A stretch of 64,000 nt of DNA from an uncultured SAR86 cluster bacterium (GTDB lineage Bacteria; Pseudomonadota; Gammaproteobacteria; Magnimaribacterales; AG-339-G14). The stretch covers positions 253,248-317,247 of the forward strand of contig CABZJI010000001.1 of the NCBI GenBank assembly GCA_902526045.1. Reading direction: 5' to 3'. The position numbers and the translations under genes are program-made. The notes beneath the pieces are model-generated. The model worked only from the letters and a program-made list of their open reading frames with translations. It was not told the origin of the DNA and did not search any database. Of this stretch, positions 19,724 to 23,336 are shown in pieces (within the stretch, counting starts at the first letter, position 1; every line of letters begins with the position of its first letter).

Positions 19724-20494
19724 TTAAATATCAAGTTCTTGAATTTTTCTTGCCAAAGTATTTCTTCCCCAACCTAAAAGCTTTGCTGCTTCCGATTTAT
19801 TTCCTCTTGTAGACTTTAAAGCTACATTAATCATAGTTTTTTCAAATATTGGAGTAGCCACGTTTAATAGATGATCCTCACCTTTGGATAATTTTTTCTC
19901 AGCCCAACTTTCGAGTATTTCTTCCCAGTTAAGTTCTTCTTTTTCCGCTTGAACAAATAGTTGTTCATGCAGATCACTCTCTTTTAAATCTTGTCCAGGT
20001 GAAAGAACAAACATTAACTTACCGATAGCATTGAAAAGATCTTGCATAGCTTCTGATCTATCAACTGTTTTCTCGTTTTGGGGCAAAATTTCTTCAACTT
20101 GTTTATTTGAAATCGTGACTGATTTTCTTTCACTTATAACTTTATCTATTTTTGATATCGCTGTATGAATATCAAAAGGTTTTGCCAAGTAATCCCAAGC
20201 ACCATGGTCAAAGGCCTCCACTGTGGTTTCTAAGTCTGAGAAGGCAGTCATCATAATAATAGGAATATCAGGATGCTCATTTTTAAACGTATCCAATAAA
20301 TCCATCCCGTCTCTTCCAGGCATACGCATATCTGTCAAAACAATATTTGGAGACTCAACATCTAATTTATTCATTACTTCATTTCCATCTTCAAAAGTGG
20401 AAACATCGAAGCCAGCCTCTGTCAGACCTTTTTCTAAAACCCATCGGATAGATTCATCGTCATCCGCTACCCATATTTTCTTATCCTGCCTCAT
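19724..20494 (-). CDS. ntrC: NtrC-family response regulator lacking the AAA+ domain
   Basis: A 256-residue protein, against about 460-490 for normal NtrC. Residues 1-122 are a receiver: acidic DDD (11-13), phospho-acceptor Asp55 in LTDMRMPG, Thr83, and Lys105 in AKPFDI. Residues 147-160 match the first helix of the NtrC AAA+ domain (MQDLFNAIGKL). The next residues (161-180) match its very end (VLSPGQD, DLHEQLF). Walker A, the GAFTGA loop, Walker B and the sensors are all absent. The C-terminal region is intact: LNWEEILESWAE and a Fis-type helix-turn-helix (about 215-254) with EAAKLLGWGRNTLARK. The frame is open, so this is a clean in-frame loss near base 20015. It can be phosphorylated and bind DNA but cannot open sigma54 promoters. 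It overlaps ntrB by 4 bases. Confidence 0.93.
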   Translation of the reverse strand: MRQDKKIWVADDDESIRWVLEKGLTEAGFDVSTFEDGNEVMNKLDVESPNIVLTDMRMPGRDGMDLLDTFKNEHPDIPIIMMTAFSDLETTVEAFDHGAWDYLAKPFDIHTAISKIDKVISERKSVTISNKQVEEILPQNEKTVDRSEAMQDLFNAIGKLMFVLSPGQDLKESDLHEQLFVQAEKEELNWEEILESWAEKKLSKGEDHLLNVATPIFEKTMINVALKSTRGNKSEAAKLLGWGRNTLARKIQELDI

Positions 20495-21591
20495 GCCGAC
20501 TCTATACCTTTATTGGAAATCTCAACTCCATTTTCATTATCTATATTTATAGGGAGATAAATCGAAAACTTAGTGCCAGCAGAAGAACTGTCACATTCAA
20601 GTGCACCTCCATGTTGAGATACAATTCCCTGTGCTATGGACAAGCCTAATCCTGACTTTATCTCTTTGCTGGACACAAGAGGAAAAAAAATTGAGTCAAT
20701 TATATCCTCGGCTATTCCAGGTCCATTATCTATGAAAGAAATTTCGCAAGTGGTTTTATGAAAAGTTCTATTGATGAAGGTGCCAAAATGAATTCTTGTT
20801 TTGAAAGAAATTTTATTTTCTCTTTCAGTAGTTTTCATAGCTTCCACTGAATTATTTGCTAAATTGTAGAGCACCTGTGTCATTAAAGACGAGTCTACGT
20901 TTAACTCAGGAAGAGTAGGATCATAATCTTTTGTAATCTGTATTTTGTCTTTTGAAATAGTACCCAAGTAATGCGGAAGTGTTTCTAAAATTGAGTGAAT
21001 GTTTACAGGAGATTTTTGTATCTCAAACTGCCTATCTAAAATCTTTGTGACAAGATCACTTAATCTTTCAGTTTCTTTAAGAATGATCTTTGTGTAATCC
21101 TTTAGTTCCTCATTCTTCAATTTAGGTTCTAAAAGTTGCGTCGCCCCTTTAATGCCACTAAGAGGATTTCTTATTTCATGTGCTAGACCTTTTGAAAAAG
21201 TGGCAGTAACTGTGGAAATGGTTTGTCTTTTCATTCTATTTAATTCACGCGATTGATTAGCATCATAAAACTCATAGAAAAGGTAATTTTTGGATTCTAT
21301 TTCAAGAAAACTTATTTCATAAGTACAAATCTTTTCGAGACCGCCCTTAAGATAAATTTTTCTTCTAGACTTTTCTAAAGAATCCTTTTCAGCTAACAGT
21401 CTTTTGATCTCAAAAATGTTACTAGGTCTCTCAGAAAATATACTCTCAATTCCATGACCTTCACTATTTTTTGAATTAAATAAAAGAAATGCTTCAGCTT
21501 CGTTACTCGCAAGGATTAGATTTAAATTCTCATCAACAACTAAAATCTTTGAGGATACGCGTTCAAGAGCTTTTCTTAATAGTTTCTTCAT
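20491..21591 (-). CDS. ntrB: nitrogen regulation sensor histidine kinase NtrB (GlnL)
   Basis: A 366-residue soluble histidine kinase. An N-terminal PAS-like region (about 13-110) contains LVVDENLNLILASNEAE. The H-box has His138 in GLAHEIRNPLSGIKGATQLL, identical in style to NtrB. The N-box is LYNLANNSVEAM (241-252), G1 is FIDNGPGI (286-293), and G2 is GLGLSIAQGIV (314-324). There is no membrane segment. In relatives its kinase/phosphatase balance is set by the PII protein. All catalytic motifs look intact, so it should still phosphorylate the ATPase-less NtrC downstream. Confidence 0.93.
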   Translation of the reverse strand: MKKLLRKALERVSSKILVVDENLNLILASNEAEAFLLFNSKNSEGHGIESIFSERPSNIFEIKRLLAEKDSLEKSRRKIYLKGGLEKICTYEISFLEIESKNYLFYEFYDANQSRELNRMKRQTISTVTATFSKGLAHEIRNPLSGIKGATQLLEPKLKNEELKDYTKIILKETERLSDLVTKILDRQFEIQKSPVNIHSILETLPHYLGTISKDKIQITKDYDPTLPELNVDSSLMTQVLYNLANNSVEAMKTTERENKISFKTRIHFGTFINRTFHKTTCEISFIDNGPGIAEDIIDSIFFPLVSSKEIKSGLGLSIAQGIVSQHGGALECDSSSAGTKFSIYLPINIDNENGVEISNKGIESA

Positions 21592-21632
21592 GACATTAAT
21601 ATTTTTTACCGTCTCAAAAGAAATTTCTAAGA

Positions 21633-21671
21633 TTAAACACTCTGAAATTGAAAGATTTTCAGAGTGTTTAA
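21633..21671 (-). terminator. 15-bp perfect hairpin between glnA and ntrB
   Basis: A perfect 15-bp inverted repeat (21633-21647 with 21657-21671; arms TTAAACACTCTGAAA and TTTCAGAGTGTTTAA) encloses a 9-base loop. It starts 24 bases after the glnA stop and lies 41 bases before the ntrB start on the minus strand. No long T-run follows, so it is more likely a partial terminator or mRNA-stabilising hairpin that lowers ntrBC expression relative to glnA. E. coli has a terminator at the same place in glnA-glnL-glnG. Confidence 0.7.
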
Positions 21672-21695
21672 CATTTTCTGTCCCATTTAGGGAAT

Positions 21696-22676
21696 TTATT
21701 TAGTAAGTGTTCCTACAATATGCGCAACAATCTTGTAGGGATCTGCATTAGAAGCAGGCCTTCTATCTTCTAGATATCCATTCCAATTGTGCTCGACAGT
21801 ATAAACAGGAATACGGATACTTGCTCCTCTATCACTTACACCAAATGAAAATTTTTCAATGCTCTGGGTTTCATGAAGACCGGTCAGTCTCATATCATTA
21901 TCAGAACCATAAGATGCTATGCCTTCTTCATGCACTTCACCAAGTTTTTCACAATAGGATGTAAAAAGCTCTTCAGAACCACTGGAGCGCATCTCTTCAT
22001 TAGAAAAGTTAGAGTGCATACCAGAACCATTCCAATCACCTGTTTTGGGCTTAGGATGGATGTTTACTCCAACACCAAATTCTTCAGCAACTTTGTAAAG
22101 AAGATATCGGCTCATCCATAAATCATCGGCAGCTTTAATCCCTTTACCGAAACATTGATATTCCCACTGACCAAGGGCAACTTCAGCATTTGTTCCTGTG
22201 AGCGTAATACCAATATCAAGACATGCTTGAAGATGTGCATCTGAGATTTCTCTTCCGACAACATTACCGGCTCCAACACCACAATAATATTCACCTTGTT
22301 CTTTAGGAGTACCGTCCTCCCATCCTAATGGTTCTCCTGTTGTAGGATCTGTAAAAAAGAATTCTTGCTCAAAACCAAACCACCATTCATCAGATACTAC
22401 TTCTGCTGCAGCAGCCCTAAAATTTGAAGGATGAGTCGTATGATCAGCAGCCTGAACCTCTGTTAGAACAAAATCATGTCCATTAGGATTCGAGTAGGTT
22501 TGAACAGGAAGTAAAAGACAATCTGAGCTTCCACCTTCTGCTTGCTGAGTAGAAGAACCATCAAATGACCAATCTGGAGGCGTTTCTTCATCAGTAGCTT
22601 TAACTTTGCTTCTCATATTGGCTTCAGGTTTATAACCGTCCAACCAAATGTATTCGTATGTTTTATAGTCTGACAT
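21696..22676 (-). CDS. glnII: glutamine synthetase type II (eukaryote-like)
   Basis: A 326-residue enzyme joining ammonia to glutamate. It is a type II synthetase (GSII), not the approximately 470-residue GSI. Marks are YEYIWLDGYKPE at the N-terminus, WSFDGSSTQQAEGGSSD, FGFEQEFFF with metal-binding glutamates, the NGSGMHSNFS ATP-site block and SDRGASIRIP near the end. GSII forms decamers and has no adenylylation site, so it is not controlled by GlnE. A strong ribosome-binding site (AGGAGA) precedes the ATG. It occupies the glnA position in front of ntrB-ntrC, where gammaproteobacteria normally have GSI. Confidence 0.94.
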   Translation of the reverse strand: MSDYKTYEYIWLDGYKPEANMRSKVKATDEETPPDWSFDGSSTQQAEGGSSDCLLLPVQTYSNPNGHDFVLTEVQAADHTTHPSNFRAAAAEVVSDEWWFGFEQEFFFTDPTTGEPLGWEDGTPKEQGEYYCGVGAGNVVGREISDAHLQACLDIGITLTGTNAEVALGQWEYQCFGKGIKAADDLWMSRYLLYKVAEEFGVGVNIHPKPKTGDWNGSGMHSNFSNEEMRSSGSEELFTSYCEKLGEVHEEGIASYGSDNDMRLTGLHETQSIEKFSFGVSDRGASIRIPVYTVEHNWNGYLEDRRPASNADPYKIVAHIVGTLTK

Positions 22677-22727
22677 TATTTCTCCTATTTTTTAATATTT
22701 ACTGACTAAATTATCAGAAAAAATGAC

Positions 22728-22740
22728 TGCATATAGTGCA
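22728..22740 (-). promoter_or_regulatory. TGCA-N5-TGCA element in the glnII upstream region
   Basis: The 99 bases before glnII (22677-22775) contain TGCACTATATGCA on the minus strand, two TGCA halves. Known NtrC sites have TGCAC half-sites but with a 9-base centre, so this is a shortened relative at best. Apart from the AGGAGA ribosome-binding site, this region contains no GG dinucleotide on the minus strand, so no sigma54 GG-N10-GC promoter is possible in it. The assignment as an NtrC operator is speculative. Confidence 0.3.
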
Positions 22741-22775
22741 ATTATGTATTATTTTAGTTCAATATATGACTTATT

Positions 22776-23336
22776 TTAAGACAAAAATTTAATAATTTGC
22801 TCTATTTTGTCCTCAAATCCATTATATTGATGGCTACCGCCCTTTGTATAGGAAATTTTGCTCTTTTTAAACTTATCAAATGAGATATTTTGATCCAAAA
22901 CCTCATCACCCGATTGGGCAAGAAGAAAATGATCACTTGGCTTCTTCAGATTAGGTGAAACGTATTTAAATAGATCTTGATAGTCTTGCAATGAAAAAGA
23001 ATCTATATTTTTATTATTAAAATTTTTATGTTCTCCAACTATGTCTCTCATATCATCCAAGTGTTTATCTACAACAGGATTTATATAAACTCCTTTAGTA
23101 TTGTATTTATTAGCAAAATAACAAGCATAAAAACCACCCATCGAGCTACCGATTAAACCTTTAACTTTATTTTTTGTCATCAAATCCTCCAACAGGCAGA
23201 TTACTTTTTGGGTCGATAAAGGTAAGTTAGGGATTAAGAGACTTTCACTAGGTTTTATCTTTTTAAGACTTGATTTGAATGACTGAGCTTTTGATGAAGA
23301 GCTAGAACTATTGAAACCGTGCAGGTAAATTATCAC
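22776..23336 (-). CDS. yqiA: YqiA-type esterase (UPF0227)
   Basis: A 186-residue alpha/beta hydrolase starting with GTG. IIYLHGFNSS carries the oxyanion loop, the nucleophile Ser is in GSSMGGFYA, the Asp in QSGDEVLD and the His in GGSHQYNGFED, all as in E. coli YqiA, which hydrolyses short- and medium-chain acyl esters. Its start lies inside the 3' end of the DUF1249 gene (29-base overlap), the same yqiB-yqiA order as in E. coli. Confidence 0.88.
   Translation of the reverse strand: MIIYLHGFNSSSSSSKAQSFKSSLKKIKPSESLLIPNLPLSTQKVICLLEDLMTKNKVKGLIGSSMGGFYACYFANKYNTKGVYINPVVDKHLDDMRDIVGEHKNFNNKNIDSFSLQDYQDLFKYVSPNLKKPSDHFLLAQSGDEVLDQNISFDKFKKSKISYTKGGSHQYNGFEDKIEQIIKFLS

Follow-up and report, generated by a model that had tools for sequence, protein, structure and literature searches.

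A probable sigma70 activator derived from NtrC by in-frame loss of the AAA+ domain in a SAR86 family without detected sigma54

NtrC is a textbook transcription factor that needs ATP to open promoters, and one locus of an uncultured SAR86 bacterium raises the question of what becomes of such a regulator when its ATPase is gone. We analysed a 64-kb stretch of this genome (64,000 nucleotides; the window), in which an ntrC gene without an AAA+ domain occupies 19724..20494. The open frame of 256 codons reported in an earlier note, made from the letters alone, was borne out and lies on the minus strand. Its product is composed of a receiver (residues 1-120), a linker, a remnant of the AAA+ domain (150-160) and a Fis-type DNA-binding and dimerisation domain (about 189-256). 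The receiver residues Asp12, Asp55, Thr83 and Lys105 are all present, each where that note had placed it. In Pfam comparisons (E<=1) Response_reg matched residues 7-115 and HTH_8 residues 217-253. Two further matches were sub-threshold, and neither Sigma54_activat nor any AAA model was among the results; in a 465-aa relative Sigma54_activat reached E = 2e-69. Residues 189-255 matched the solved NtrC DNA-binding domain (1ntc) which, together with the HTH_8 match, upholds the Fis-type end read from the letters. The top NCBIfam matches were NtrC/NR(I) models (E = 3e-68 and 5e-68, in two stretches, 230 bits each), and these scores stay under the NtrC equivalog thresholds (620 and 559 bits), a shortfall to be expected of a protein without the central domain.

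Alignment with the full-length, 465-aa relatives places a single in-frame gap of 209 residues in the short NtrC. The gap spans the ATPase from Walker A to sensor II and takes with it GAFTGA, Walker B and the arginine-finger region; the earlier estimate of about 220 missing residues was right about the loss and close in size. The junction falls between Leu160 and Met161 (base 20015/20014 by counting, minus strand), where AMQDLFNAIGKL reads straight into MFVLSPGQD. The AAA+ remnant MQDLFNAIGKL had been recognised correctly on the near side of the junction, and its direct join to the following piece stands. The identification of that piece as the last AAA+ strand does not: VLSPGQD aligns with VLSSGQE, which follows the PGNVLQLQN motif in relatives, and by this alignment it is the lid end or linker. 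Structure prediction of the short NtrC from a 7-row alignment gave a mean pLDDT of 46.8 and was set aside.

The setting of the gene was compared across the SAR86 order (203 genomes), in which the family of the window (f1) is represented by 40 genomes and its genus (g1) by nine. The end of ntrB (20491..21591, minus strand), which encodes a histidine kinase with HisKA and HATPase_c domains and the H-box KGLAHEIRNPL, overlaps the start of ntrC by 4 bases. Beyond it stands a glutamine synthetase gene (21696..22676, minus strand; Pfam gives Gln-synt_N/C alone), which we take to be of type GSII and which is a likely NtrC target. The order GSII-ntrB-ntrC-rhodanese-gpm-hisF is identical in loci of g2, g3 and g4, the other genera of f1, and of the sister family f3 (11 loci read), with the exceptions that G023 has a second glutamine synthetase-like gene between GSII and ntrB and that L080 has no called rhodanese frame. 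The second gene of G023 is the larger one (468 aa; L079:5071-6477, minus strand). As the synteny GSII-ntrB-ntrC-(rhodanese)-gpm-hisF spans from f3 to g1, the short gene is, judged by gene order, a true, syntenic ntrC orthologue. Compared with an f3 NtrC (G176), the window protein has identities of 0.56 in the receiver and 0.57 in the DNA-binding domain, similar to those of seven full-length f1 NtrCs (0.50-0.53 and 0.49-0.56), and there is therefore no sign of acceleration. In the window, the gap between GSII and ntrB (21592-21695) holds a terminator-like inverted repeat, AAACACTCTGAAA...TTTCAGAGTGTTT, which was not seen in the five other g1 loci aligned.

A search of relatives for the same deletion beside ntrB, suggested in the earlier note, found it in seven of the nine g1 genomes. 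The six genes other than that of the window (from SAR86 isolates AG-915-K19, AG-453-B11, AG-911-D02, AG-909-C16, AG-914-F13 and AH-736-O06) encode the short form, 92-93% identical to that of the window from end to end; for the neighbouring genes in g1, identity to the window is 61-64% for a YqiA-like protein, 84-86% for NtrB and 89-96% for GSII. A contig scan for the short form returned six g1 loci and one Nitrospira receiver match. The dN/dS of ntrC was 0.031 for the window against its six relatives (dS 1.4, near saturation) and 0.036 among the six (dS 0.48); by region it was 0.014-0.028 in the receiver, 0.02-0.03 in the junction segment (151-172) and 0.08-0.09 in the looser linker (121-150). 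All 256 codons are open in 7/7 genes, and Asp12, Asp55, Thr83 and Lys105 are invariant in 7/7 proteins. A non-functional remnant heading for loss, or an assembly artefact, might be expected in a genome of 1.2 Mb (93% complete), and no ntrC was found in two of the nine g1 genomes; those two are only 60% and 71% complete, however, and the same form in seven independent assemblies rules out assembly error, as the open frames and a dN/dS of about 0.03 rule out decay. We give almost no credence to either, and the maintained regulator supposed in the earlier note accords with these figures.

The partner of a conventional NtrC was sought in the same genomes. The sigma54 core-binding domain (PF04963) was found in 0/40 f1 genomes, while elsewhere in the order 111 of 163 genomes have it, and within g1 neither this domain nor the sigma54 DNA-binding domain was found in any of nine genomes. 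At the position of rpoN in other SAR86 (lptB-rpoN in an f3 locus, 427 aa; lptB-rpoN-mgtE in an f2 locus, 413 aa), lptB of g1 is followed directly by mgtE, with no frame between them (4/4 loci read). The check for rpoN proposed in the earlier note thus found none in g1, in line with the sigma54 independence it had assumed. Matches to PF00158 in g1 were weak and fell in one 756-757-aa frame, present in eight of nine genomes (none in G013), which is taken to be Clp-type by its size and two match regions; the search of the nine genomes found no sigma54-type activator. It is conceivable that another protein supplies the AAA+ function in trans to a sigma54 that was missed, given that the window genome is 93% complete and no g1 genome is closed. 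Both the presumed Clp-type character of the sole PF00158 frame and the agreement between the domain searches and the four lptB-mgtE loci speak against this, and we hold it to be very improbable; hidden sigma54 or other activators are rejected as far as incomplete assemblies permit. Elsewhere in the order, genus g6 of family f2 (G041-G050) has the core-binding domain in none of 10 genomes, most of f2 having it, and is perhaps a second sigma54 loss in SAR86. In family f2 no genome matched NtrC at 1e-40, the match in one of them (G100) being at 2e-36.

A trace of sigma54 persists in other genera of the family. The DNA-binding domain model PF04552 matches in 10/40 f1 genomes, all of them in g2 (5/7) and g3 (5/8), and each match is a frame of 78-91 aa that covers the RpoN box alone, the final 58-78 positions of the 160 in the model. 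These mini-RpoN frames (L034:1489-1731 (-), L035:1489-1719 (-), L088:2353-2589 (+) and L052-L061) align to the end of full RpoN and occupy the rpoN position of other SAR86, as lptB-miniRpoN-mgtE in three g2/g3 loci; in g4 (5/5 loci) and in G016 of g3, unrelated convergent genes follow lptB. Of 20 mini-RpoN pairs compared inside g2 or inside g3, 17 have a dN/dS of about 0.02-0.3 and the other three a saturated dS; mini-RpoN therefore looks like a maintained small protein, a sigma factor cut to its last DNA-binding piece.

The full-length relatives show erosion of the ATPase motifs as well. All three f3 NtrCs read carry GAFTGA and the sensor II motif GNVRQL, whereas 29/29 full-length f1 NtrCs have GNVLQL, with leucine in place of the sensor II arginine, a residue with a role in hydrolysis. 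This count leaves out a second NtrC-like frame of G024 (504 aa), and NtrC was not found in four f1 genomes (G001, G009, G015 and G036). GAFTGA is replaced by GAFKGA or GAFAGA in 17/29: it is kept in 6/6 g2 and 6/8 g3 proteins, GAFAGA occurs in G016 and G023, and 15/15 of g4 have GAFKGA. The sensor II replacement throughout f1, set against the arginine of f3, suggests that the shift from ATP-driven sigma54 activation preceded the deletion, and on this evidence the departure from sigma54 goes back to the base of f1 or beyond. The AAA+ domain is nevertheless strongly conserved in g2-g4 (dN/dS 0.010-0.028, dS about 1-1.5), and its conservation without sigma54 indicates a role there that g1 dispenses with.

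All ten mini-RpoN genomes carry GAFTGA, and where the lptB locus was read without mini-RpoN (four in g1, five in g4, and G016) the GAFTGA threonine or the whole domain is gone. The pairing leaves out G003 and G020 (GAFTGA) and G023 (GAFAGA), in which no mini-RpoN was found; lptB was not found in G020 and G023 and was not sought in G003. In a four-protein tree of 17 loci, g1 is sister to g4 plus g2/g3 (support 100; g2+g3 93), and on this tree the joint loss of mini-RpoN and of the threonine or domain may represent three events, which is a lead and no proof. It is a speculative and on balance doubtful extension of these data that a sigma54 switch became a sigma70 switch stepwise at the same target genes, with the mini-RpoN of g2/g3 still acting with the GAFTGA loop of NtrC.

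The region upstream of GSII bears on how a short NtrC could act. On the minus strand of the window it holds three NtrC-like dyads: dyad 1, TGTCTTAAAATAAGTCA (22767..22783), is the weakest and overlaps the end of the upstream gene, dyad 2 is TGAACTAAAATAATACA (22745..22761) and dyad 3 is TGCACTATATGCAGTCA (22724..22740). Ten nucleotides past dyad 3 lies a -10 hexamer, TAATTT, with TGA before it (22708..22713, minus strand; an extended -10). Dyad 2 differs from the consensus at no more than 3 positions, as no other site in the window does; chance would supply 0.6 such sites and 49/100 shuffles of the window hold at least one, so dyad 2 alone proves little. The comparison covered 36 GSII upstream stretches, 32 of them usable and from f1, with g3_G020 (54 nt) and three f3 stretches set aside; G002 (stretch beyond the contig), G024 and G014 (locus L039, without GSII) are also outside the set. 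Three dyads with the consensus TGCACTAWWWTAGTGCA are present in 32/32 f1 promoters, spaced 22 and 22 nt apart, or 22 and 21 in g1. Their summed score (20-23 nt apart) was reached by 0/300 Markov reshuffles in each of the 32, with sums, out of 51, of 37-39 in g1, 36-39 in g2, 40-45 in g3 and 42-44 in g4. TGnTAnnnT follows dyad 3 at a fixed 10-nt gap in 32/32, a count to be read with the dyad consensus and the gap having been set after inspecting these promoters and with the 32 being related rows, for which four genera is the fairer sample size; a free -10 search settled on the 10-nt register in 29/32, and in three of six g1 promoters, that of the window included, it chose a gap of 8. The three f3 promoters have sums of 34, 31 and 32 (p 0.003, 0.037 and 0.010) at other spacings. 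As 0/300 shuffles reached the sum of the f3 promoter of G162 either, the dyad arrays and the -10-like element may predate sigma54 loss. Sites of the sigma54 -24/-12 type were rejected in f1, where the best had at least 3 mismatches in 10 scored bases; in 2/3 f3 promoters a candidate with 2 mismatches was found and is not convincing.

No recognisable -35 was found in the f1 GSII promoters (best match at spacers of 15-19, mean 2.2/6, against 3.0 by chance), and dyad 3 covers the -35 region, its centre lying near -31 by counting, which is closer than usual for sigma70 activators. PhoB promoters have tandem activator sites in place of the -35, ending about 10 nt before the -10. The extended -10 without a -35 agrees with the proposal of the earlier note that the regulator works with sigma70; that note had left activator or repressor open, and the promoter anatomy favours an activator. 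A repressor, whose bound dyads would block sigma70 polymerase over the -35 with phosphorylation altering occupancy, would also suit the position of dyad 3. A -35 worse than chance fits an activator-dependent promoter, though, a simple block needs fewer than three phased dyads, and phosphorylated NtrC normally induces glutamine synthetase and Amt; we consider repression unlikely, even with the precedent that Caulobacter NtrC is reported to repress some genes (PMC10274813).

Candidate sites of the preferred activator extend beyond GSII. The dyad TGCACTAATTTAGTTCA precedes glnK-amt in 3/3 g1 loci read, and TGCTCTTTTTTAGAGCA or a one-base variant lies upstream of the other amt gene of g1 in 4/4 loci read by eye. 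In g4 the best site upstream of glnK scores just 13/17 (2/2 read); the glnK comparison covers g1 and g4, g3 being left out for a misplaced start. An ammonium transporter (PF00909) was not found in the window genome, which is 93% complete, and these two sets of dyads are therefore known from other g1 genomes. PF00909 matches in 36/40 f1 genomes.

The gene, its synteny, the deletion, the conservation, the absence of sigma54 and the promoter anatomy are established here, and with them a phosphorylation-controlled sigma70 activator, derived from ntrC by in-frame AAA+ deletion in a family without sigma54, is the probable reading of the locus. From sequence we infer binding, phosphorylation dependence and activation as its working parts. 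The AAA+ domain would have been lost by in-frame deletion from a true ntrC when the family was already without sigma54. NtrB would phosphorylate Asp55, and the short NtrC, with its retained NtrC C-terminal domain, would dimerise and bind the TGCAC-type dyad arrays upstream of GSII, glnK-amt and amt. The last dyad on the -35 region, the extended -10 and the lack of a -35 make it most likely that the bound protein recruits sigma70 RNA polymerase directly, without ATP, possibly through contacts with sigma region 4 and/or alpha. Phosphorylation dependence is plausible, the phosphosite and NtrB being kept. One might instead suppose a sigma70 activator that has shed this dependence and acts as a constitutive or level-controlled DNA-binding protein, since without AAA+ the known oligomerisation route from a phosphorylated receiver is gone. 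The four invariant receiver residues (7/7), the receiver dN/dS of 0.014-0.028 and the ntrB with its His box retained next door make this decidedly unlikely, and we retain the phosphorylation-controlled activator.

That activator has partial counterparts. The NtrC of R. capsulatus, without GAFTGA, is reported to activate through sigma70, and Caulobacter NtrC to regulate sigma70 promoters; as in the arrangement proposed here, an NtrB-NtrC pair controls glutamine synthetase and the sigma54-contact loop is lost, and both proteins need Asp phosphorylation for activation (PMC10274813). The loss of the GAFTGA loop that marks sigma70-type NtrCs is found in the short NtrC as the absence of the whole domain. 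Unlike it, the two known proteins retain AAA+ apart from a portion of loop 1 and depend on it: R. capsulatus NtrC requires ATP binding, and in Caulobacter deletion of residues 159-363, almost the segment absent from the short NtrC, gives no growth on ammonium, as does mutation of Walker residues (PMC10274813). The failure of the Caulobacter deletion means that not all sigma70-type NtrCs can lose AAA+ without cost, and g1 must therefore have made up for the loss, with the layout of its promoters and the junction region as candidate places.

The helix-turn-helix of RegA is of the Fis type. RegA, PrrA and ActR share with the short NtrC a receiver-linker-HTH architecture without AAA+ (RegA, PMC9147068; PrrA-like and Fis classes, PMC2222644). 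The ActR/PrrA/RegA model NF033791 (cut-off 250 bits) matched the receiver alone, with 68 bits, where the NtrC models reached 230. Unlike these regulators, the short NtrC has an NtrC profile as its best match, the ntrB/GSII partner and synteny, and still has the C-terminal domain of NtrC, which is longer, along with an AAA+ scar. Its profile and synteny argue that the likeness is convergence: by these measures the short protein is an NtrC, of another family, that has converged on the RegA/PrrA architecture. It resembles gammaproteobacterial NtrC (NR(I)) in synteny, profile, receiver and the DNA-recognition region LLGWGRNTLARK, and differs in being without the AAA+ ATPase in an organism in which no sigma54 was found. 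Features of group I enhancer-binding proteins that it possesses are the phospho-Asp receiver, NtrB pairing, an NtrC-kind Fis-type domain and ntrB/GS synteny; it has no central AAA+ domain, scores under the NCBIfam cut-off, and sigma54 was not found in the genome (93% complete). Fis, a nucleoid protein proposed to descend from the NtrC C-terminal domain, is likewise a possible NtrC descendant without AAA+, but has no receiver.

In 369 genomes of the class, 268 of which have a match at 1e-25, none among the matches listed covers both query ends except that of the window; this comparison leaves out the 329-402-aa frames of G438, G511 and G324, and a 325-aa frame of G268 reaches as far as Walker A, where its stretch stops. 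Within f1, among the matches listed, a response regulator of about 485 aa, a CheY-like protein of about 123 aa and a receiver protein of about 999 aa are clustered in many g2-g4 genomes and in G010 (C4), and no other g1 genome has more than two matches in total. In the titles and abstract beginnings of open-licence literature we found no description of an NtrC without AAA+, nor of sigma54 or NtrC in SAR86. Sigma70-type NtrC and the RegA/PrrA-like architecture are known; the set of intermediates seen here is unusually complete.

The SAR86 order thereby offers a natural experiment, with living intermediates from sigma54 loss to AAA+ loss: sigma54 is gone in f1, sensor II and then GAFTGA in some genera, and the domain in g1, and the sensor, the DNA-binding part and the target gene persist through the whole series. 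How an ATP-driven sigma54 activator turns into a sigma70 activator is a question testable with extant proteins and promoters, and comparison with Caulobacter can reveal which changes in promoter or protein allow a cell to do without the ATPase. As SAR86 abounds in the ocean, many surface-ocean cells may regulate ammonium uptake in this way.
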